From positions 1 to 50,151 of the IMG/VR virus record IMGVR_UViG_3300032240_001755: a stretch of DNA of 50,151 nucleotides. The stretch is one strand, 5' to 3'. Below, one piece after another: positions 2,230 to 44,472 of this stretch. The stretch comes from a virus. How positions within the stretch are numbered: the first letter of the stretch is position 1; every line of letters starts with the position of its first letter. The translations under genes were made by a program, and so were the position numbers. Below the pieces are notes generated by a model. It saw only the letters and a list, made by a program, of their open reading frames with translations, was not told where the DNA came from and did no database searches.

Positions 2230-3738
2230 ATGAATCCCCAACTGTTAGCAATCGTAGATGATAAAATTATTATTAACAAAGTTCAGTTAAAATGGACAGA
2301 AGGTCAAATAACCCACCTGGGTAATTTTGATGTACGTGGTAAATTAGTAGCACAGCAACCATCTGTATTTGAATCTGACGTAGCAGTCAACGGACAACTA
2401 GCAGTTGACACTCTTATAGTAAAACATTTAATAAGCGAAACATCTGCAGAAACCGGCTTTGGACAATGGGCTGGAAATACTGAGGAAGATATTACAGAAA
2501 AAGGATTATTCTGGACTTCGGGAAATAATAGTTCAAGATTAGTATACGCTGGCAACAAAAAGATCTTTGCAGATGCACATATAGATTTAAGTTTAGATTC
2601 TACATACAAAATTCACGGTGCCACAGTTCTTAGTGCTACCGCATTAGGCGGTGGTGTTTCTAGCAGTAATCTAAGAAAATTAGGACGTTTAGAAAAGCTA
2701 GATGTTGATGGTAACACTAATCTAGGCGATTTTGCGTTTTTTAATACTGTAGCAAACAGATTAGGTTTAGGAACAGAAGAACCAACACACGACATTAGTA
2801 TTGTAAGCAATAATGTTGAAATTGGTGTTGGAAGTCCGCGATATGGGTTAGCGGTACTAGGTACGGTGTCTAACCACGATGTTAGCATTATTACTGATAA
2901 TACTCCAAGAATTACTGTAAAAAACAACGGCGAAGTTATTATTGGCAATTTAAGCAGTAGAGACGGTGTTCTTAAAATATACGGAACACTACAAGTTGAT
3001 AGCATTATTAGCGATACTAGAGTTGAAAGATCAAGTTCGTTAACTTTTGTTCCAAATTTAGACACTAGTGTTTACGGAAAAGGTGTTGTTTGGGCAGGAG
3101 GTGATGTACAAAAAGAATTAGTATTGCAGGCAGATCCCGATAGGATTAAGTCAACATTGCCTATAGATGTTGCAGTAGGACAGTCATATATGATTGACGG
3201 AACTGTAGTATTAACCGCCGGAGATCTAGGAGTAAATATTACTAGATCAAATCTATCAACTCTAGGAGTACTTGAATCACTAACCGTACAAGGTGATGTT
3301 GACCTACGTAGCAATGTTAATATTGATGTATTAGCTGTTACTGATATAGTCATTAATAAAAATTGGCTAATACATCAACCAGGTATCCAAGCAGGCAGCG
3401 ATTTTAAAATAACCGCTAGTAGTGACAATTTACTAAGTGTAAATACGCAAGCTATTACCGTTGGCGATGTTGCTACATCTAATAAAATTGTAAGAATTTT
3501 TGGAAAAGTTGGCATCGGTATGAACCAACCTGACGAAAGTGTAAGATTAGATGTTAGTGGGCCTGTTAAATTTGATAACAAAAAATTCATCAATGATGTT
3601 GCACCTCCGACATCCGGTATCTTTATGAAAGGTGATATTTGCTGGAACTCTAACCCCCAACCTGGTAATTACATTGGTTGGGTTTGCTTAGTAGACGGCA
3701 CACCTGGAGAATGGTCATCCTTTGGATTAATTAATTAA
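2230..3738 (+). CDS. Tail-fibre-like structural protein with an internal duplication (502 aa)
   Basis: A beta-rich, low-Cys protein with many short Val/Ile/Asn strands. Two related halves can be read: residues about 90-160 (EKGLFW, YKIHGATVLSATALGGG, SSSNLRKLGRLEKLDVDG) and about 285-360 (GKGVVW, YMIDGTVVLTAGDLG, TRSNLSTLGVLESLTVQG). Each half ends with a short LGLG/IGN-type strand resembling phage fibre repeats. The C-terminus (GIFMKGDICWNSNPQPGNYIG) looks like the head domain found at the end of many phage and prophage fibre proteins. The start is supported by GAGACT 10 bases upstream and by the late promoter element before it. The role, a short fibre or baseplate-attached structural protein, is inferred. 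Confidence 0.75.
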   Translation: MNPQLLAIVDDKIIINKVQLKWTEGQITHLGNFDVRGKLVAQQPSVFESDVAVNGQLAVDTLIVKHLISETSAETGFGQWAGNTEEDITEKGLFWTSGNNSSRLVYAGNKKIFADAHIDLSLDSTYKIHGATVLSATALGGGVSSSNLRKLGRLEKLDVDGNTNLGDFAFFNTVANRLGLGTEEPTHDISIVSNNVEIGVGSPRYGLAVLGTVSNHDVSIITDNTPRITVKNNGEVIIGNLSSRDGVLKIYGTLQVDSIISDTRVERSSSLTFVPNLDTSVYGKGVVWAGGDVQKELVLQADPDRIKSTLPIDVAVGQSYMIDGTVVLTAGDLGVNITRSNLSTLGVLESLTVQGDVDLRSNVNIDVLAVTDIVINKNWLIHQPGIQAGSDFKITASSDNLLSVNTQAITVGDVATSNKIVRIFGKVGIGMNQPDESVRLDVSGPVKFDNKKFINDVAPPTSGIFMKGDICWNSNPQPGNYIGWVCLVDGTPGEWSSFGLIN

Positions 3739-3747
3739 CCAATAGCG

Positions 3748-3775
3748 TTGACATACAGTAACAATACTGTATAAT
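3748..3775 (+). promoter_or_regulatory. Sigma70 promoter (TTGACA, 16 bp, TATAAT)
   Basis: TTGACA at 3748-3753 and TATAAT at 3770-3775 are both perfect consensus hexamers separated by 16 bases. The promoter lies downstream of the late fibre genes and about 90 bases before queD, so it probably drives the QueD to UvdE operon early with host RNA polymerase. Confidence 0.85.
3754..3771. promoter_or_regulatory. Perfect inverted repeat inside the promoter, possible operator
   Basis: TACAGTA (3754-3760), four bases, then TACTGTA (3765-3771) is a perfect 7-bp inverted repeat filling the spacer and touching the -10 box. A similar repeat sits at the same place in the promoter before the ClpA-like gene (38031-38046). 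A repressor or other dimeric protein bound here would block polymerase; this is inference. Confidence 0.5.
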
Positions 3776-3861
3776 TACTATAGTGGTCTTACATGGCATT
3801 CATCCCACTTTAAATACTCTGCATGTCATCAAACTTGCTACTTTTTAAAAGGAGACTAGAG

Positions 3862-4392
3862 ATGGCAAAATTTTACTCAACAAAAACTTACGGAAACGAC
3901 CGCGGCTTATCATGCTGTTTTAGACAATGGCGTGCCTCGCACAGTCATTGCTCAACACTACACGGTTACTCAATTGGCATCAAATTAATCTTTGAGTGCG
4001 ACACACTAGATGACAAAAACTGGTGTATGGACTTTGGCGGACTTAAAGAATTCAAAGCGTGGGCAGACTATATGTTTGATCATACTTTGGTTATTGCTCA
4101 AGATGATCCTCATATTAATTTCTTTAAACAAATGTCCAATATGGGAAATATTCCTAGCTCAGGGAATGGAGATCAAGGATTTGATACATTAAAACCATTT
4201 CAACGAGGTGCATTATGCGACTTACGTATTGTGCCAGGCGTTGGCTGCGAAATGTTTGCTAAAATGTGTTACGACAAAATGGCAGAGCTAATAGCAAGCG
4301 GTGATATGCGTTATCCAATTAATTCAACAGTAAGAGTCAAATCAGTTGAAGTATTTGAACACGGTGCTAATTCTGCTACATACGAAGGATGA
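3862..4392 (+). CDS. queD: QueD-like 6-carboxytetrahydropterin synthase
   Basis: The family converts dihydroneopterin triphosphate to 6-carboxytetrahydropterin, the second step to preQ0 and 7-deazaguanine (queuosine) bases. Visible signatures are an early RQWRASHSHC segment, CSTLHGY, NWCMDFGGLK and FDHTLVI, matching the tunnelling-fold synthases in order. The usual zinc motif HGH reads HGY here, a variant I associate with a proteobacterial QueD subgroup; the zinc ligand set should therefore be checked. The start at 3862 is chosen over the in-frame ATG at 3823 because AAAGGAGACT lies 7-10 bases upstream and the extra 13 residues do not fit the family. No queC, queE or folE is in the window, so the enzyme may feed a host pathway or genes elsewhere in the phage. 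Confidence 0.8.
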   Translation: MAKFYSTKTYGNDRGLSCCFRQWRASHSHCSTLHGYSIGIKLIFECDTLDDKNWCMDFGGLKEFKAWADYMFDHTLVIAQDDPHINFFKQMSNMGNIPSSGNGDQGFDTLKPFQRGALCDLRIVPGVGCEMFAKMCYDKMAELIASGDMRYPINSTVRVKSVEVFEHGANSATYEG

Positions 4393-5998: not shown

Positions 5999-6559
5999 AT
6001 GTACAATTTTATCAAGCATATCACGCTAAATGAGGGCAAAACTCCTAAAACTTTAACCCAAACAAAGTTGCCCTATAGTCGCGATGATTTAGAGCCAAGT
6101 ATTAGCGAAGACACGATAGATTATCATTACGGCAAGCTATACAAGGCGTATGTTACCCGTTTTAACAACGGAGAAGGCGATGCTGACTTTAATGAAGCAG
6201 GAGCATTTTTACACGATTTATTGTTTACACAGTATCAAACACCTACAACGTCTAACACTCCAGACGGGTCTGCAGGCGAATTTATTACTAAACACTTTAA
6301 AACTTTTGACAAATTTAAAGATGCGTTTCAAAAAGAAGCTATGGCAGTGCAAGGTAGCGGATGGGTTTATTTGGCTCGTGATGGTAAGATCAAAACTATT
6401 ACCAATCACGAAATTAAGATGGATATTGTACTCTTAATTGATTGGTGGGAACATGCGTGGGCACTAGACTACCAAGCTGATAAAAAATCGTATCTCAACA
6501 ACCAATGGAAAATTATCAACTGGAACGTAATTAGTTCTAGAATTGGTCTAGCGTCTTAA
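5999..6559 (+). CDS. sod: Fe/Mn-type superoxide dismutase
   Basis: Converts superoxide to hydrogen peroxide and oxygen. The family layout is clear: LPYSRDDLEPSISEDTIDYHYGK at residues 24-46, a shortened helical region, SGWVYLARDGK, then LLIDWWEHAWALDY and NQWKIINWN. All four metal ligands can be placed: His43, His72, Asp148 and His152. The second-sphere glutamine positions read Gly68 and His137, a pattern closer to His-type (mycobacterial-like) enzymes than to the E. coli Fe or Mn forms, so metal choice is open. The domain joining the two halves is shorter than usual. There is no signal peptide; it should act in the cytoplasm or in the virion. No Shine-Dalgarno is seen before the ATG, which stands almost on the late promoter element. 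Confidence 0.85.
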   Translation: MYNFIKHITLNEGKTPKTLTQTKLPYSRDDLEPSISEDTIDYHYGKLYKAYVTRFNNGEGDADFNEAGAFLHDLLFTQYQTPTTSNTPDGSAGEFITKHFKTFDKFKDAFQKEAMAVQGSGWVYLARDGKIKTITNHEIKMDIVLLIDWWEHAWALDYQADKKSYLNNQWKIINWNVISSRIGLAS

Positions 6560-7207: not shown

Positions 7208-19920
<12,713 letters not shown>

Positions 19921-19921
<1 letters not shown>

Positions 19922-22418: not shown

Positions 22419-22982
22419 ATGCCAATACAAGATATTAAAATCGGTGCTTATCCAAATGATGGAACAGGTGACGATCTACGCACAGCATTTAAAAAAATTA
22501 ATGATAATTTTTCAGCAGTAGCAACAACTGTAGCTATTGGTAATGCTACTAACTTGGGAGCAGGTATTGGTTTATTTGCACAACGAAATATTGCCAATTT
22601 AGAATTTAAAAGTTTAACAAGTACTGCTGGTACTGTTGCAATTACAGAAACTGCAACTACAGTTAATCTAAATGCCATTGCTAAGTTAGAAACTGATCTT
22701 GCTCCAAAACTAGGCGCAAATTTAAACTTAAACGGACATGATATGTCTGGCGATGGAAGTATCAATGCCAATGTATGGGGTGCAAATGTTAGAATTATTA
22801 ATACATTAATGTACTTTATATTACGATCATCTGCTATATCAGTTGACTTTGGAACATTTACTACACCTGCAGGTGTAGGGCCTAACGGAACTATTCCTAA
22901 CGGAATTCCGTTAGACATGGGTTCTTTTACAATTTCTACTGGTTCAATTAATAACAATATACTTGACTTTGGTACGTTCTAA
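22419..22982 (+). CDS. Short fibre-like protein with the shared N-terminal module (187 aa)
   Basis: The N-terminus IKIGAYPNDGTGDDLRTAFK, then INDNF, is the same module as in the giant and 822-residue fibres. A short region (AKLETDLAPKLGANLNLNGHDMSGDGSIN) resembles phage fibre 'linker' repeats, and the C-terminus is Ile/Phe/Gly rich (VDFGTFTTPAGVGPNG, LDFGTF). The gene sits between a late promoter and the haem-peroxidase virion protein, whose ATG lies in its stop. It may be the adaptor that joins the next protein to the tail; that is inference. Confidence 0.75.
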   Translation: MPIQDIKIGAYPNDGTGDDLRTAFKKINDNFSAVATTVAIGNATNLGAGIGLFAQRNIANLEFKSLTSTAGTVAITETATTVNLNAIAKLETDLAPKLGANLNLNGHDMSGDGSINANVWGANVRIINTLMYFILRSSAISVDFGTFTTPAGVGPNGTIPNGIPLDMGSFTISTGSINNNILDFGTF

Positions 22983-25900
22983 TGTTAAATGTTTGGACAC
23001 AGCTTTCAGGATATTCTCTAGGGACATTCCAAGAGCAAACATCGATAAATCAGTTACTTCCGGTTGATACATATCTCGGAAGGATACAGCCGCCTGCATA
23101 CGACGGAACTGGCCACCACCCAACTGCACCGTTACGTAATAGTGCTGGTGCACCTTTTGCTCGATACCCGGTGAACAGCTATGCAGATGGTATACATGCC
23201 ATGCGTAACGATTTACCCAATGCCCGAACTATTAGTAATTTAATAGTGTGGGATCAGGCGAATCAGGGCAATGATCCCGACCCTACTGGATATAGTGGAT
23301 TCATGTACGCATGGGGACAATTTTTAACACACGATTTAGAATTTGCTCGACCAGGAACAGGCAACATTGATGTTGTAGTTCCTGTAGGCGACACAAATTT
23401 AACTCCCGGAAGCCATATTCCCGTCACTAGGAATTCTGTGGCTCCGGGAACTGGTACCGATGCGCAACACCCTGCGGTACCGCAAAACGATGTTACTGGT
23501 TGGATTGATGCCAGTGTGGTCTACGGTGTAGCATATCCTCCAGGGGTGACCCAAGGTCCAACCCCTTTCCAGAATCCAGTCAACTTGCGAGAAGGTGGAC
23601 AGATGGCAACCACTGGTAAACTATCAACTACTTCAAACGGACAATACGGGCCAATCACTAATAATAGTTTTGTGTTCGGAGATCCAAGAGGTACAGAAAA
23701 TCCAGACCTAACAAGTATACAGACATTGATGATACGAGAACATAACTGGCATGTTACTCGACTAGCCCTAGCAAATCCGTCGTGGGACGGGGAGCGATTA
23801 TACCAAAGGGCAAGGTCTATTGTTATCGCAGAAATGCAAGCGATAACATACAAAGAATGGTTACCAAAAGTCGTCGGTGCTGGAGCGATTCCTGCATATA
23901 CAGGATTTAAACCTGAAGTTGATGCTAGCATAAAAATAGAATTCGCCGCTGCCGCCATGCGATTTGGCCATAGTATTGTTTCCGGTGCGCAGGATCGTAT
24001 TGACGAGCAAGGCAACATTACAGAATCGTTAACCCTAGCCCAGGCATTTTTCTTAACACCTAGCGAATTTGAACGCAATGGTGGCGCTGATGGATTTTTA
24101 CGTAAACTAGCTGCCGATATCAGTAACAAGCTAGATGTGCATATTATTGAAGATCTAAGAAATTTACTAGACGATCCACCAGCTGCAATGGATCTTGCCG
24201 CAACAAATATTCAACGTGGTCGTGATTTAGGTTTACCTAGTTTAAATCAAATGCGTCAAGTATTAGGTCTAACTGCTTATACCTCTTGGAGTCAGATCAC
24301 GTCTGATACTGTACTTGCGGCTGCGCTACAGGCAGCATATACAGATATCAACGATATAGATCTATGGATAGGTGGATTGGCAGAAGATAGGGTCGTAGGA
24401 GCCATGGTTGGTCAAACATTCCGTACTATTATTGTTGATCAGTTTATCCGTGTTAGAGACGGAGATGCACAGTGGTATGAAAATCTAAATTGGTCAGCTA
24501 GTGATTTAACTTGGCTGCAAAATACCACACTAGCTGATATAATCCTACGCAATACCAATACTGTTAAATTACAAAAAGATGTTTTTATTGCAGTTGAGCG
24601 AGAGTTATTATTGAATGACTCTATACCAGTGGCTACTGCTAGAACAGGCGGTGCTGTTACTGAATACGGTACTTTACCGACATTTAAAGTAATTTCTGGA
24701 AAATTGCCGCCGGGATTACGATTACAAGGTACTTATATAGTTGGTAGCGCATATGAGGTAGCAAGGACTACAGAATTTACATTCTGTATACGGGCTAGTT
24801 TAAACGGCGAGATAAGTGATCGAACTTATAAAATAATTATCGAAGGTCCAGACGCACCAGTATTTGTTTCCCCTGCAGGGGCATTATCAATTGGGGAATT
24901 CCAACAATACTATGTCATGGACAGCAGTTATGTTGATTATCAAATTGAAGCAACAGACTTAGACACTGCCGCTGGGCAAACACTTAGCTTCTTTATTGCA
25001 AGTAATGACGGGGAACTTCCTCCTGGATTAATATTAACACAGGAAGGTAAGATTGTAGGTTATGTAGAGCCAGCTTTAGCAATACCTGTAGATGCAGGCG
25101 ACGGATCATTTGATGCTGGACTATTTGATGCAGTTGCATTTGATTTTGGGACCATTTCAACTAACGGATACGATAGTTTTATCTACGATAGTGTATATTT
25201 TGATTTTAATTTGCCAGCAGTGCGTCCAAAAAAATTAAACAGAAATTATGAATTTATTGTAACCGTTACTGACGGAGATACTTACATTAAACAAAAATTT
25301 GGAATATTTGTCGTAGGAGATGATTTTTTCCGTGCTGATAACACAACATGGCTAGATGGCAACGGATTATTTACTGCCGACGTTACCTACCTAAGAACAC
25401 CAGCTTGGATCACTCCTAGAGATTTAGGATATTTTAGAGCAAATAATTATGCAACAATAAGCATTGAATTTTATCAAACTGCTGAACCGGTTGTTCTTAC
25501 ATTTACAAGCGGCTCTTTACCGCCCGGCTTAACTTTTGATGCAAATCACGGAAAGATTTTTGGATCTATTCCATATCAACCCGCTATTACAAAAACATAT
25601 ACATTTACTATTACAGCTACTAGGTATGGCGATCATGGCGATTTAGTAGAATCTTCTAGACAGTTTACTCTTAGGGTTATTGGAGATATTGACAGTGTTA
25701 TTACTTGGAATAGTACAACTACACTAGGAAAAATCAATGCAAATTTTGTTTCTAATTTTGCTATAAGTGCATCAAGCACAATACCCGATGCTGTATTAAC
25801 ATATACACTAGTAAGTGGAAAATTGCCGCCAGGTTTAAAATTAAATTTAAATGGAGAGATTGTTGGTAAAGTAACACAGTATGGGTTGTATCATACTGTT

Positions 25901-27013
25901 GGACCAACTATAGTTGTTGATAAGATTGGATTAACTTCTTTTAATTCTGATCAAGTTAAAAATCCAACATCTACACATAGAGCAACTACATTTGACGGCG
26001 GTTCATTTAGCCTTGACAGAGTCTATACATTTACTGTCCAAGTCCAAGACCAGTTAGGATATAGTGCAGTTACAAAGCAATTTATTATAACAATTGATGC
26101 CCCAAATCAATTAGTATTCAGTAATATTAAAGTAAAGCCATTTTTAAAATTAGAGCAAAGAAATGCATGGAGGGAATTTATTAACGACCCAGCAATCTTT
26201 ACACCATCAAGCATTTATAGATTTGATGATTCTAATTTTGGTGTTCAAACAGATTTATCACTAATAGTCTATGCAGGGATAGAAACAACCGAGGCACCAG
26301 CATATATTGCTGCCATGGGATTAAATCATAAAGTTAAACGTTTCCAATTTGGTTCTGTTAAAAAAGCAACAGCTATTTTGCCAGGCACAAATACACAACT
26401 TTATGAAATTGTTTATGTAGAAATGATTGATCCGTTAGAAGCTAATGGGAAACATTTACCTTCTACTATAACACGTTTAGAACCCCAACGTAAAACAATA
26501 CTTGCTGATAAATCTAATAGTTATTGGTCAGGTGGATTTCCATATCACAAACCTACACCAACTGCGGGAGAGCAATCTTTAATAGATAATTTAGCTATTC
26601 CTGCGCCATTTGCTCCAAGAGACAACGAATTAATTTCAGCAGACAGCACTGGCTATAAATCTTCAGACCCTAATTCAAAAGTATATTACCCGAGTAGTAT
26701 TAGCCTTTGGAGAGAGCGTATTAAAAATACTATACATCTAGATAGTTCAAAACTAGCTTCAGAACGAAATTATTTGCCGCTTTGGATGCGTAGTATACAA
26801 CCAGGTGAAAAACAAGAATTGGGATTTAAATTAGCAATACCATTATGTTACTGTAAAGTAGGTACAGCTGATACAATCATGTTAAACATAAAATACAGCG
26901 AATTTGACTTCAAACTATTAGATTATACCGCAGATCGTTACATAATAGATTCCGTAGACGGTTATACAGGCGATAAATATCTAGTATTCAAAAACAATAG
27001 GATAACAGTATGA
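22982..27013 (+). CDS. Virion protein with an animal-type haem peroxidase domain and Ig-like repeats (1343 aa)
   Basis: Residues about 35-540 match the animal haem peroxidase (myeloperoxidase/peroxidasin) superfamily. Compared with myeloperoxidase: Gln113 and distal His117 in WGQFLTHDLEF; calcium site Asp118 plus Thr172-Asp176-Ser178 in TGWIDASVVYG; catalytic Arg236 and haem-linking Glu239 in GDPRGTENPDL; the REHN and WDGERLYQRAR motifs; proximal His330 in MRFGHSIV; Asn409 in NIQRGRDLGLPS. The other haem-ester Asp is Thr116 and the sulfonium Met is Asn240, so at most one covalent link is expected. The rest carries four SGxLPPGL-type Ig-like segments (near residues 576, 680, 845, 948) and GEIVGK strands, as in the large T4-like cyanophage structural proteins. 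The N-terminal 28 residues also look like that family, so the peroxidase appears inserted. No signal peptide. Confidence 0.9.
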   Translation: MLNVWTQLSGYSLGTFQEQTSINQLLPVDTYLGRIQPPAYDGTGHHPTAPLRNSAGAPFARYPVNSYADGIHAMRNDLPNARTISNLIVWDQANQGNDPDPTGYSGFMYAWGQFLTHDLEFARPGTGNIDVVVPVGDTNLTPGSHIPVTRNSVAPGTGTDAQHPAVPQNDVTGWIDASVVYGVAYPPGVTQGPTPFQNPVNLREGGQMATTGKLSTTSNGQYGPITNNSFVFGDPRGTENPDLTSIQTLMIREHNWHVTRLALANPSWDGERLYQRARSIVIAEMQAITYKEWLPKVVGAGAIPAYTGFKPEVDASIKIEFAAAAMRFGHSIVSGAQDRIDEQGNITESLTLAQAFFLTPSEFERNGGADGFLRKLAADISNKLDVHIIEDLRNLLDDPPAAMDLAATNIQRGRDLGLPSLNQMRQVLGLTAYTSWSQITSDTVLAAALQAAYTDINDIDLWIGGLAEDRVVGAMVGQTFRTIIVDQFIRVRDGDAQWYENLNWSASDLTWLQNTTLADIILRNTNTVKLQKDVFIAVERELLLNDSIPVATARTGGAVTEYGTLPTFKVISGKLPPGLRLQGTYIVGSAYEVARTTEFTFCIRASLNGEISDRTYKIIIEGPDAPVFVSPAGALSIGEFQQYYVMDSSYVDYQIEATDLDTAAGQTLSFFIASNDGELPPGLILTQEGKIVGYVEPALAIPVDAGDGSFDAGLFDAVAFDFGTISTNGYDSFIYDSVYFDFNLPAVRPKKLNRNYEFIVTVTDGDTYIKQKFGIFVVGDDFFRADNTTWLDGNGLFTADVTYLRTPAWITPRDLGYFRANNYATISIEFYQTAEPVVLTFTSGSLPPGLTFDANHGKIFGSIPYQPAITKTYTFTITATRYGDHGDLVESSRQFTLRVIGDIDSVITWNSTTTLGKINANFVSNFAISASSTIPDAVLTYTLVSGKLPPGLKLNLNGEIVGKVTQYGLYHTVGPTIVVDKIGLTSFNSDQVKNPTSTHRATTFDGGSFSLDRVYTFTVQVQDQLGYSAVTKQFIITIDAPNQLVFSNIKVKPFLKLEQRNAWREFINDPAIFTPSSIYRFDDSNFGVQTDLSLIVYAGIETTEAPAYIAAMGLNHKVKRFQFGSVKKATAILPGTNTQLYEIVYVEMIDPLEANGKHLPSTITRLEPQRKTILADKSNSYWSGGFPYHKPTPTAGEQSLIDNLAIPAPFAPRDNELISADSTGYKSSDPNSKVYYPSSISLWRERIKNTIHLDSSKLASERNYLPLWMRSIQPGEKQELGFKLAIPLCYCKVGTADTIMLNIKYSEFDFKLLDYTADRYIIDSVDGYTGDKYLVFKNNRITV

Positions 27014-27612
27014 CCAGCACAATTAATTATTCAGCAGTAAACACAGCTTACCCAGTAGCCGGAATTGATAACGATAGCCAAGGGTTTCGTGATAATTTTT
27101 CAGCAATTTCAAATGCACTATCTGTTGCAAAAACAGAACTTACATCATTACAAAATAATGCCGTAATTAAATCCACGCTATCGGGAACGCCAACTCCTGT
27201 TGTAAACGATTTACTGGGTAGTACAATAAGTAACGGATTATACAATAATATGTCAGGAGTGACATATGGAACCATCACTGTGCAAGCAAGCTCAGTAATT
27301 GATGTAAATTTATTAAACGGACCCCTACAAATTTATGCATTAAACGGAAATGCGACATTGCGATTTATTAATTGGCCAGGGTCTAACAACTATAGTAAAA
27401 TTCGACTACATATAAAAAGTACAGGAACAGTAGCCGTTCCTGCTGGAACTACATATACTCCTACCTTAGGAACAGAAAATGGCGGGACACTAGTATACGC
27501 CACAGGTTTTCCATCGCTTGCATTAGGAACAACCGGCAAGTACAAAGTTATTGAAGCATGGTCATTTGATGATGGTGTAAATGTTTATGTGAGTTATATA
27601 GGTGAATTTTAA
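27010..27612 (+). CDS. Structural protein with fibre-type N-terminus (200 aa)
   Basis: ATGA overlap with the haem-peroxidase gene. The N-terminus INYSAVNTAYPVAGIDNDSQ followed by GFRDNFSAISNAL is a diverged form of the D..G...R..F..I..NF module at the start of the fibres, and I recall this arrangement behind the large Ig-like structural protein in T4-like cyanophages. The remainder is beta-rich (LNGPLQIYALNGNATLRFIN, VPAGTTYTPTLGTENGG) and ends with VYVSYIGEF. A small tail or baseplate-surface protein is the best guess. The next gene starts in its stop codon. Confidence 0.72.
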   Translation: MTSTINYSAVNTAYPVAGIDNDSQGFRDNFSAISNALSVAKTELTSLQNNAVIKSTLSGTPTPVVNDLLGSTISNGLYNNMSGVTYGTITVQASSVIDVNLLNGPLQIYALNGNATLRFINWPGSNNYSKIRLHIKSTGTVAVPAGTTYTPTLGTENGGTLVYATGFPSLALGTTGKYKVIEAWSFDDGVNVYVSYIGEF

Positions 27613-27851: not shown

Positions 27852-28367
27852 ATGCACCTAGACAAATATTCTAATCCAATTTTTAACGAACAAGATTTAA
27901 TCGATGCCTTATATAAAGGTGTCCAGTTTGCACCTGACGACATTGTATTTGTTAGTGAAAAAAATGCTAATATCAAAAACTTTGAAGAAATATCAGGTAT
28001 TAGTTTATTTGAACCAATTAACAGTCCAACATTAACAGTTGAGCAGTTAGATAAAGCATGGCAAGAACAATGGCACATGCCGTTTGAATATAAGCAATTG
28101 GATATCGAAGCATGGTTATTTGAACAAGTACCACCATGGGATCCACAACATACTAGAGTAACAGAAGAGTTAGAAGCGTACAAAGCAAGAAACATGCTAG
28201 ATCTATTACGTTGGCTCAAATACTTTGTAGATGTTTGTTCGAAAGAAAACATTGTATGGGGTGTTGGTCGAGGATCTAGTGTAGCCAGTTATGTACTTTA
28301 CTTAATAGGTGTACATAGTATTGATAGTATCAAATATAATTTGGACTGGCGAGAATTTCTAAGATAA
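27852..28367 (+). CDS. Protein with a DNA polymerase III alpha-like GRGSS segment (171 aa)
   Basis: The last 40 residues (IVWGVGRGSSVASYVLYLIG then IDSIKYNLDWREFLR) closely follow the C-family polymerase motif GPGRGSAAGSLVAYLLGIT...DPL.Y.LLFERFLN. The protein ends just where the polymerase would go on to its catalytic DxD motif, so it lacks the acidic metal ligands and cannot be a polymerase by itself. The N-terminal 110 residues (EQDLIDALYKG, WHMPFEYKQLDIEAW) contain no PHP-domain metal motifs that I can see. It may bind DNA or nucleotide, or mimic the host replicase. No clear ribosome site is present before the ATG at 27852. Confidence 0.65.
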   Translation: MHLDKYSNPIFNEQDLIDALYKGVQFAPDDIVFVSEKNANIKNFEEISGISLFEPINSPTLTVEQLDKAWQEQWHMPFEYKQLDIEAWLFEQVPPWDPQHTRVTEELEAYKARNMLDLLRWLKYFVDVCSKENIVWGVGRGSSVASYVLYLIGVHSIDSIKYNLDWREFLR

Positions 28368-44031: not shown

Positions 44032-44472
44032 ATGGATCAAAAATATCATTTAGCATTAAAAACGGCATTTGCAAGCGAATACGCATTTGCATTAAAAGCG
44101 CAAAACTTTCACTGGAACGTAGAAGGTGCAAGTTTTCCGCAACTACATATATTGTTTGAAAAAATCTACGACGAAGTGTATGGAAGTATTGATACATTTG
44201 CAGAACAACTTCGCGCACTACAGATGTACACACCTGCAAGTTTAGCCAAGTTTAGTATGCTTACCAAAGTTGAAGATGAAAATACAGAAGGTATGGATGC
44301 TGGACAAATGGTTGCAGAATTACTACAAGATAGCGAAAAGATGGCTGGTATTTTTAAGTTAGTATTTGCCATGGCTGAACAATCCGGTGATCATGGATTA
44401 AGTAACTTTTTTGCAGATCGTCAAGATGCACATAAAAAACACAGCTGGATGTTACGCAGTACATTAAAATGA
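44032..44472 (+). CDS. dps: Dps-like ferritin (146 aa)
   Basis: Dps forms a dodecamer that oxidises and stores iron, uses peroxide and can bind DNA. The di-iron ferroxidase residues match E. coli spacing exactly: His in FHWNVEG (position +0), His +12 (QLHILF), Glu +16 (Asp in E. coli), Asp +27 and Glu +31 (SIDTFAEQL). The length and the five-helix layout fit, without the Lys-rich DNA-binding tail. It starts one base after the previous stop and lies among proteins with head-targeting-like leaders; its own N-terminus (MDQKYHL) lacks that motif. Confidence 0.88.
   Translation: MDQKYHLALKTAFASEYAFALKAQNFHWNVEGASFPQLHILFEKIYDEVYGSIDTFAEQLRALQMYTPASLAKFSMLTKVEDENTEGMDAGQMVAELLQDSEKMAGIFKLVFAMAEQSGDHGLSNFFADRQDAHKKHSWMLRSTLK

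Follow-up and report, generated by a model that had tools for sequence, protein, structure and literature searches.

What is an enzyme of the myeloperoxidase family doing inside a probable structural gene of a bacteriophage, and how did it come to be there? The question is raised by a single gene in the stretch of viral DNA analysed here, hereafter called the window (50,151 nucleotides, IMG/VR record IMGVR_UViG_3300032240_001755). Its parts, its two neighbours and the residues of interest are listed below; loci with and without the peroxidase insert are called filled and empty.

22419-22982, + strand: upstream gene, the start of which matches a "baseplate wedge tail fiber connector" profile; conserved next to the scaffold gene whether the locus is empty or filled
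22982-27013, + strand: whole gene (1343 amino acids, ATG start), Ig-like scaffold protein with inserted haem peroxidase
22982-23065, + strand: N-terminal strands of Ig-like domain 1 (residues 1-28), common to the empty homologues
23084-24601, + strand: peroxidase insert (about residues 35-540), with the Pfam An_peroxidase match at 23099-24586
23327-23329, + strand: Thr116 in place of the haem-ester Asp (Thr in 19 of 19 phages, Asp in 77 of 78 bacteria)
23330-23332, + strand: distal His117 (19 of 19 phage domains)
23495-23515, + strand: calcium loop T172-x-W174-x-D176-x-S178
23687-23698, + strand: catalytic Arg236 and ester Glu239, RxxE (19 of 19 phage domains)
23969-23971, + strand: proximal His330 (19 of 19 phage domains)
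24206-24208, + strand: Asn409, partner of the proximal His (19 of 19 phage domains)
24665-24847, + strand: rest of Ig-like domain 1 (LPPGL and the following strands, residues 562-622)
24848-26116, + strand: additional Ig-like (He_PIG) domains of the scaffold, from Pfam and the fold model of homologue L018
26117-27010, + strand: conserved C-terminal domain (NFG..., LPLWMRS), present also in more than 500 IMG/VR stretches and in the Atu_ph07 and Phosso protease proteins
27010-27612, + strand: downstream gene, conserved neighbour at empty and filled loci

An earlier note, made from the sequence alone, had described a complete animal-type haem peroxidase at this place. The Pfam search agrees: residues 40-535 of the window protein matched An_peroxidase (E=7.8e-118; 394.8 bits, cut-off 25) over essentially the entire profile (positions 4-530 of 530), and the residues named in that note (His117, Asp118, Thr172, Asp176, Ser178, Arg236, Glu239, His330 and Asn409) all stand where it had put them. 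Solved relatives in the PDB include 8s6c 'Lactoperoxidase' (1.1e-84), peroxinectin A (1.1e-72), dual oxidase and myeloperoxidase. By homology, the open reading frame contains a full animal-type haem peroxidase of the myeloperoxidase family. An AlphaFold model of residues 1-670, built on a 16-row alignment of near relatives, had a mean pLDDT of only 40, with most of the peroxidase part below 50 and the Ig flanks as the sole confident part; the fold is for this reason taken from sequence homology. The same note had assigned the flanks to an LPPGL Ig-like protein of T4-like phages, in keeping with the He_PIG (Ig) match in the C-terminal part of the protein (E=4.6e-17) and with the empty homologues described below. 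The scaffold has about four Ig-like (He_PIG) domains, and the peroxidase is nested within the first. The G+C content of the insert is 0.445, against 0.356 in the remainder of the gene, residues 1-545 contain no cysteine, and one peroxidase copy was found in a search of the window's own record.

Most genes of the window have homologues in the same order on a 223-kb record (that of L007), which carries a T4-like gp23 (E=1.4e-79); the counterpart in Sinorhizobium phage Phosso shares 72.7% identity with it, and those of CBB, GAP32 and relatives about 68%. The carriers are assigned to the T4-like jumbo myoviruses close to the Rak2-like phages; no capsid gene was recognised within the window, and its own placement thus rests on synteny. 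Both genes upstream of the peroxidase gene start with matches to baseplate-wedge profiles, and the flanking genes are identical in kind at empty and filled loci. In Atu_ph07, the virion proteins detected by mass spectrometry are mostly encoded in three clusters, among them CDS 284-329 (PMC6102473). The Atu_ph07 homologue, a protease-scaffold fusion, is gp329, and from this cluster limit we infer its presence in the virion. From gene context and this homologue, the window protein is probably also a component of the virus particle.

Several other genes of the window were recorded. Two fibre-like proteins (124-1956 and 7214-19921, one of 4235 amino acids) have similar C-terminal regions, and the former has a match to Peptidase_G2, a self-cleaving domain, slightly under the cut-off. 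A 171-residue open reading frame (27852-28367), at the same place in relatives, matches only part of the NTPase domain of DNA polymerase III alpha and is perhaps a piece of a split polymerase gene. A Dps/ferritin-like gene (44032-44472) has a counterpart of 73% identity in the related 223-kb record.

The insertion itself can be followed by comparison with the same scaffold protein lacking the peroxidase, found in the same gene neighbourhood in L006, L015 and L018. When the domain was excised by script, the flanks of most carriers met at residue 25 of L018, between two strands of Ig-like domain 1; L012 and L021, whose domain limits overran the domain, were left out of this analysis. This position corresponds to the insertion just after residue 28 that the earlier note had proposed. 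In L006, the nearest empty relative, the DNA match with the window (87%) stops at 23036 and resumes at 24752 (79%), and the upstream protein is 90% identical to its window counterpart. The search for the same insertion in similar Ig-like proteins, which the note had suggested, thus returned three empty homologues and, on the filled side, 18 loci in a whole-protein scan of IMG/VR and 27 in a peroxidase-domain scan; together with L005 these make at least 28 other carrier records, all of them uncultured contigs and some near-duplicates. The identical junction recurs in many contigs from different metagenomes.

A second site was found in three phages (L031, L033 and L034/L035), which carry the same peroxidase clade at L018 residues 501-504, about 480 scaffold residues downstream of the first site. 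In these carriers nothing interrupts Ig-like domain 1 (LPxGL at residues 42-45 and 146-149), and the second site falls in a low-confidence loop (485-523) of the L018 scaffold model. The occurrence of one clade at two sites of one scaffold implies that the link with the scaffold is conserved, and not a single position. Ig-like domain 1 of the carrier L011 (frame of 1642 amino acids, 9986-14911) holds an extra insertion behind the peroxidase.

In a tree obtained by a short search without bootstrap and rooted at the midpoint, the 19 phage domains cluster together (SH-aLRT 100) and divide into a first-site group (92) and a second-site group (100); their neighbours are enzymes of Bradyrhizobium, Mycobacterium and Comamonadaceae. 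The simplest reading of this tree is that the domain was acquired once from bacteria and later moved from one site to the other; it may also have been acquired twice, from close donors. The nearest bacterial rows (Bradyrhizobium, Mycobacterium MAGs and Comamonadaceae) belong to the animal-type haem peroxidases of the peroxidase-cyclooxygenase superfamily, are about 44-51% identical over the domain and share the catalytic residues; their frames, in contrast, have no phage scaffold and keep the haem-ester Asp.

Seven insert-bearing records each contained one An_peroxidase copy, and the domain was absent throughout seven large empty-scaffold records (146-364 kb); records of both kinds may be incomplete. 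In the genome scan, phage-only patterns retrieved no relative, and mixed patterns retrieved relatives. The earlier note knew of no described phage example. A tblastn search of 50,697 catalogued phage records with the whole protein and with the domain gave no peroxidase at E<=10, only one spurious match of 56 residues, and no published report of a phage enzyme of this type was found in the literature searched, which mostly excluded subscription journals and preprints. On another viral contig, L399, a 482-residue animal-type haem peroxidase (2869-4317) with the usual GQFLDHD motif is unfused to the scaffold and adjoins DNA polymerase III alpha-like and helicase-like genes; it represents another, independent occurrence in viruses unless the contig was mis-assigned.

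Eighteen distinct usable phage domains and that of the window (19 in total) were compared with 78 bacterial relatives. All 19 phage domains have the distal His, the Arg, the Glu, the proximal His and the Asn, together with the calcium Thr and the second calcium Asp. The first calcium Asp (Asp118) is replaced by Glu in 7 of the 19 and the calcium Ser by Thr in 4; the full calcium loop ascribed to the window protein is therefore present there, but its Asp118 does not extend to all the phages. Myeloperoxidase and lactoperoxidase have the distal His, Arg, Glu, proximal His, Asn and calcium loop in common with the phage enzymes, which differ in having neither the Asp ester residue, nor the Met sulfonium residue (Asn240 in the window protein), nor cysteines (residues 1-545).

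The phage motif is GQF[LI]TH[DE], against GQxxDHD in the family, with Thr at the ester-Asp position in every phage domain. The motif Gln, put forward for halide binding (PMC4420034), is conserved in the phage domains (Gln113). The same source calls GQxxDHD with its haem-ester Asp typical and exempts families 4 and 7 (PMC4420034), so the change from Asp to Thr is a derived variant and does not exclude the phage domains from the An_peroxidase superfamily. Of the myeloperoxidase set (Asp and Glu esters and a Met sulfonium link), the window protein has Thr116, Glu239 and Asn240. The loss of covalent haem links suggested earlier accordingly holds for the Asp ester and the Met, but not for the Glu of the RxxE motif, the second haem-ester residue, which is retained in 19/19, so that one covalent link stays possible. 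Between the window and L002, the nearest pair, dS is 0.85, dN 0.073 and dN/dS 0.086, a pattern indicative of purifying selection on a gene retained for function.

The scaffold is far more common than its peroxidase. Its C-terminal part is encoded in 517 and at least 531 IMG/VR stretches in two scans; the peroxidase was absent from 79 newly fetched scaffold stretches, which are those nearest L018, so that 0/79 is not an unbiased frequency. Among catalogued phages, tblastn detected the scaffold in Atu_ph07 and Phosso only, fused in both to a subtilisin-like Peptidase_S8 domain (L045 9511-13266 and L046 9373-13236). Atu_ph07 gp329 and the Phosso 'S8 family peptidase', from related jumbo phages, have a homologous Ig-like scaffold and C-terminal domain, with 24.6% identity over the scaffold; they differ in carrying an N-terminal subtilase where the window protein has a peroxidase in a loop. 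Because the protease stands at the N-terminus, outside the peroxidase loop, it is a parallel case and not the same insertion. A CBM5/12 domain was found in scaffold homologue L099 (33.1 bits, Pfam cut-off 26.2), and CBM5/12-like matches below the cut-off in L096, L071, L076, L031 and L034.

In the fold model of the empty L018 scaffold (mean pLDDT 68, pTM 0.33), Ig-like sandwiches follow one another in a chain and the C-terminal part is alpha/beta. Structural relatives of the model in a viral library included the Atu_ph07 protease (1.8e-33) and an uncharacterised protein of Klebsiella phage K64-1 (3.7e-24), with the low TM-scores usual for flexible chains; the PDB gave only generic cadherin/Ig matches, also with low TM-scores. 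It is quite possible, if a little short of probable, that jumbo phages use the scaffold as a general platform for display, with cargo varying by lineage (peroxidase in either loop, N-terminal subtilase, CBM5/12-like modules) and giving redox-active virions in some of them.

What, then, would the peroxidase do? The explanation towards which we lean, with modest confidence, is that a scaffold of the tail, baseplate or whisker region shows a bacterial-type peroxidase on the outside of the particle for peroxide-driven oxidation of the host envelope or matrix. We infer the virion location, haem loading, activity and target of the enzyme along the following lines. In the particle of this Rak2/T4-like jumbo myovirus, the scaffold would most likely belong to the tail, baseplate or whisker region, with the bacterial haem peroxidase domain inserted in a loop of its first Ig-like domain. 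During assembly, the cysteine-free domain would fold around host haem in the cytoplasm and then be carried outside on the virion. Hydrogen peroxide near the host surface or in the water would serve as the oxidant source, and oxidants or radicals made from halide, thiocyanate, phenolic or tyrosyl groups, or Mn might modify the host envelope or surrounding matrix.

A virion-displayed oxidase is favoured by the extracellular, surface-acting character that the peroxidase shares with the other cargo, the subtilase and the carbohydrate-binding modules. Phage virion depolymerases and virion lysins are likewise particle-borne enzymes that act on the cell surface, a likeness that for the phage peroxidase is a proposal; the known ones are hydrolases, lyases or proteases, and to our knowledge there is no haem oxidoreductase among them. 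In bacteria, enzymes of the wider family are able to oxidise Mn(II), and one of them needs no peroxide to do so (PMC6247904), so that the donor cannot be read from the sequence. Some points count against the proposed role. Thr116 and the change of Asp118 to Glu in 7/19 phages could reduce activity or redox potential. The particle is assembled in the cytoplasm, where there is little of the calcium that these enzymes bind. The AlphaFold model, lastly, failed to show the peroxidase fold.

The window also contains a gene similar to Fe/Mn superoxide dismutase (5999-6559; Pfam 3e-23) with Ser instead of His at its first metal-ligand position. A motif match over 80 SOD-like reading frames gave Ser at this position in 52 and Ala in 18, and the DxWEH ligand motif in all. 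The protein was considered as a supplier of hydrogen peroxide for the peroxidase; the replaced ligand (70/80) and a far wider spread, with relatives in 597 IMG/VR stretches, weaken this idea. It is possibly an inactive or repurposed SOD fold widespread in phages.

Other functions can be weighed against the same evidence, chief among them peroxide disposal and cross-linking. Peroxidases use up peroxide, and the window holds genes of a stress type (Dps/ferritin-like and UvdE), so a virion-borne enzyme might instead remove hydrogen peroxide that would otherwise harm the particle or the infection by oxidation. This is unlikely: peroxidases require a reducing donor and are poor general scavengers compared with catalase, disposal has no need of a structural-scaffold fusion at two sites, the sister scaffolds bear a protease and carbohydrate-binding modules and no redox enzymes, and the SOD-like neighbour lacks one of its metal-ligand His residues. 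Peroxidasin and peroxinectin have roles also in adhesion or matrix, and the phage enzyme might similarly cross-link fibres internally, or join the virion to the host surface, through covalent bonds of the dityrosine kind. The joining of about four Ig-like domains to a peroxidase recalls peroxidasin, where a peroxidase is combined with four Ig domains (PMC3533774). The likeness appears convergent, however, as the phage domains group beside bacterial homologues in the tree; the phage Ig domains are of the He_PIG family, the peroxidase is nested inside one of them, the origin is separate, and the leucine-rich repeats and C-type Ig domains of peroxidasin are absent from the window protein, in which Pfam found He_PIG and An_peroxidase only. 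Cross-linking is given little weight.

That the fusion protein acts outside the virion, within the cell or released at lysis, on host or competitors, seems very improbable to us given the baseplate and tail-fibre neighbourhood, the homologue in the Atu_ph07 virion cluster and an Ig-like scaffold of a type found in tail proteins. The loss of the ester Asp and the substitution of Asp118 in some phages would suit an inactive structural remnant or an assembly artefact; this is hardly credible beside a dN/dS of about 0.09, catalytic residues all invariant in 19/19, and one junction in many contigs of different metagenomes.

The enzyme family and the presence of enzymes on virions are already known; the combination of the two, the two insertion sites and the phage-wide change from Asp to Thr appear new against the phage records and papers searched. 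If the display platform is real, it would provide redox-active virions, a kind without an earlier description found in the literature searched. A haem oxidoreductase in a virion protein would also raise the question of how a virus loads haem and calcium in assembly. One enzyme in two loops of one scaffold is a natural case that may be useful for understanding enzyme display. Known virion enzymes are mostly cutters of polymers or proteins. If the preferred explanation is true, a conserved haem oxidoreductase in a tail-module protein would add redox chemistry to the abilities of the phage particle.
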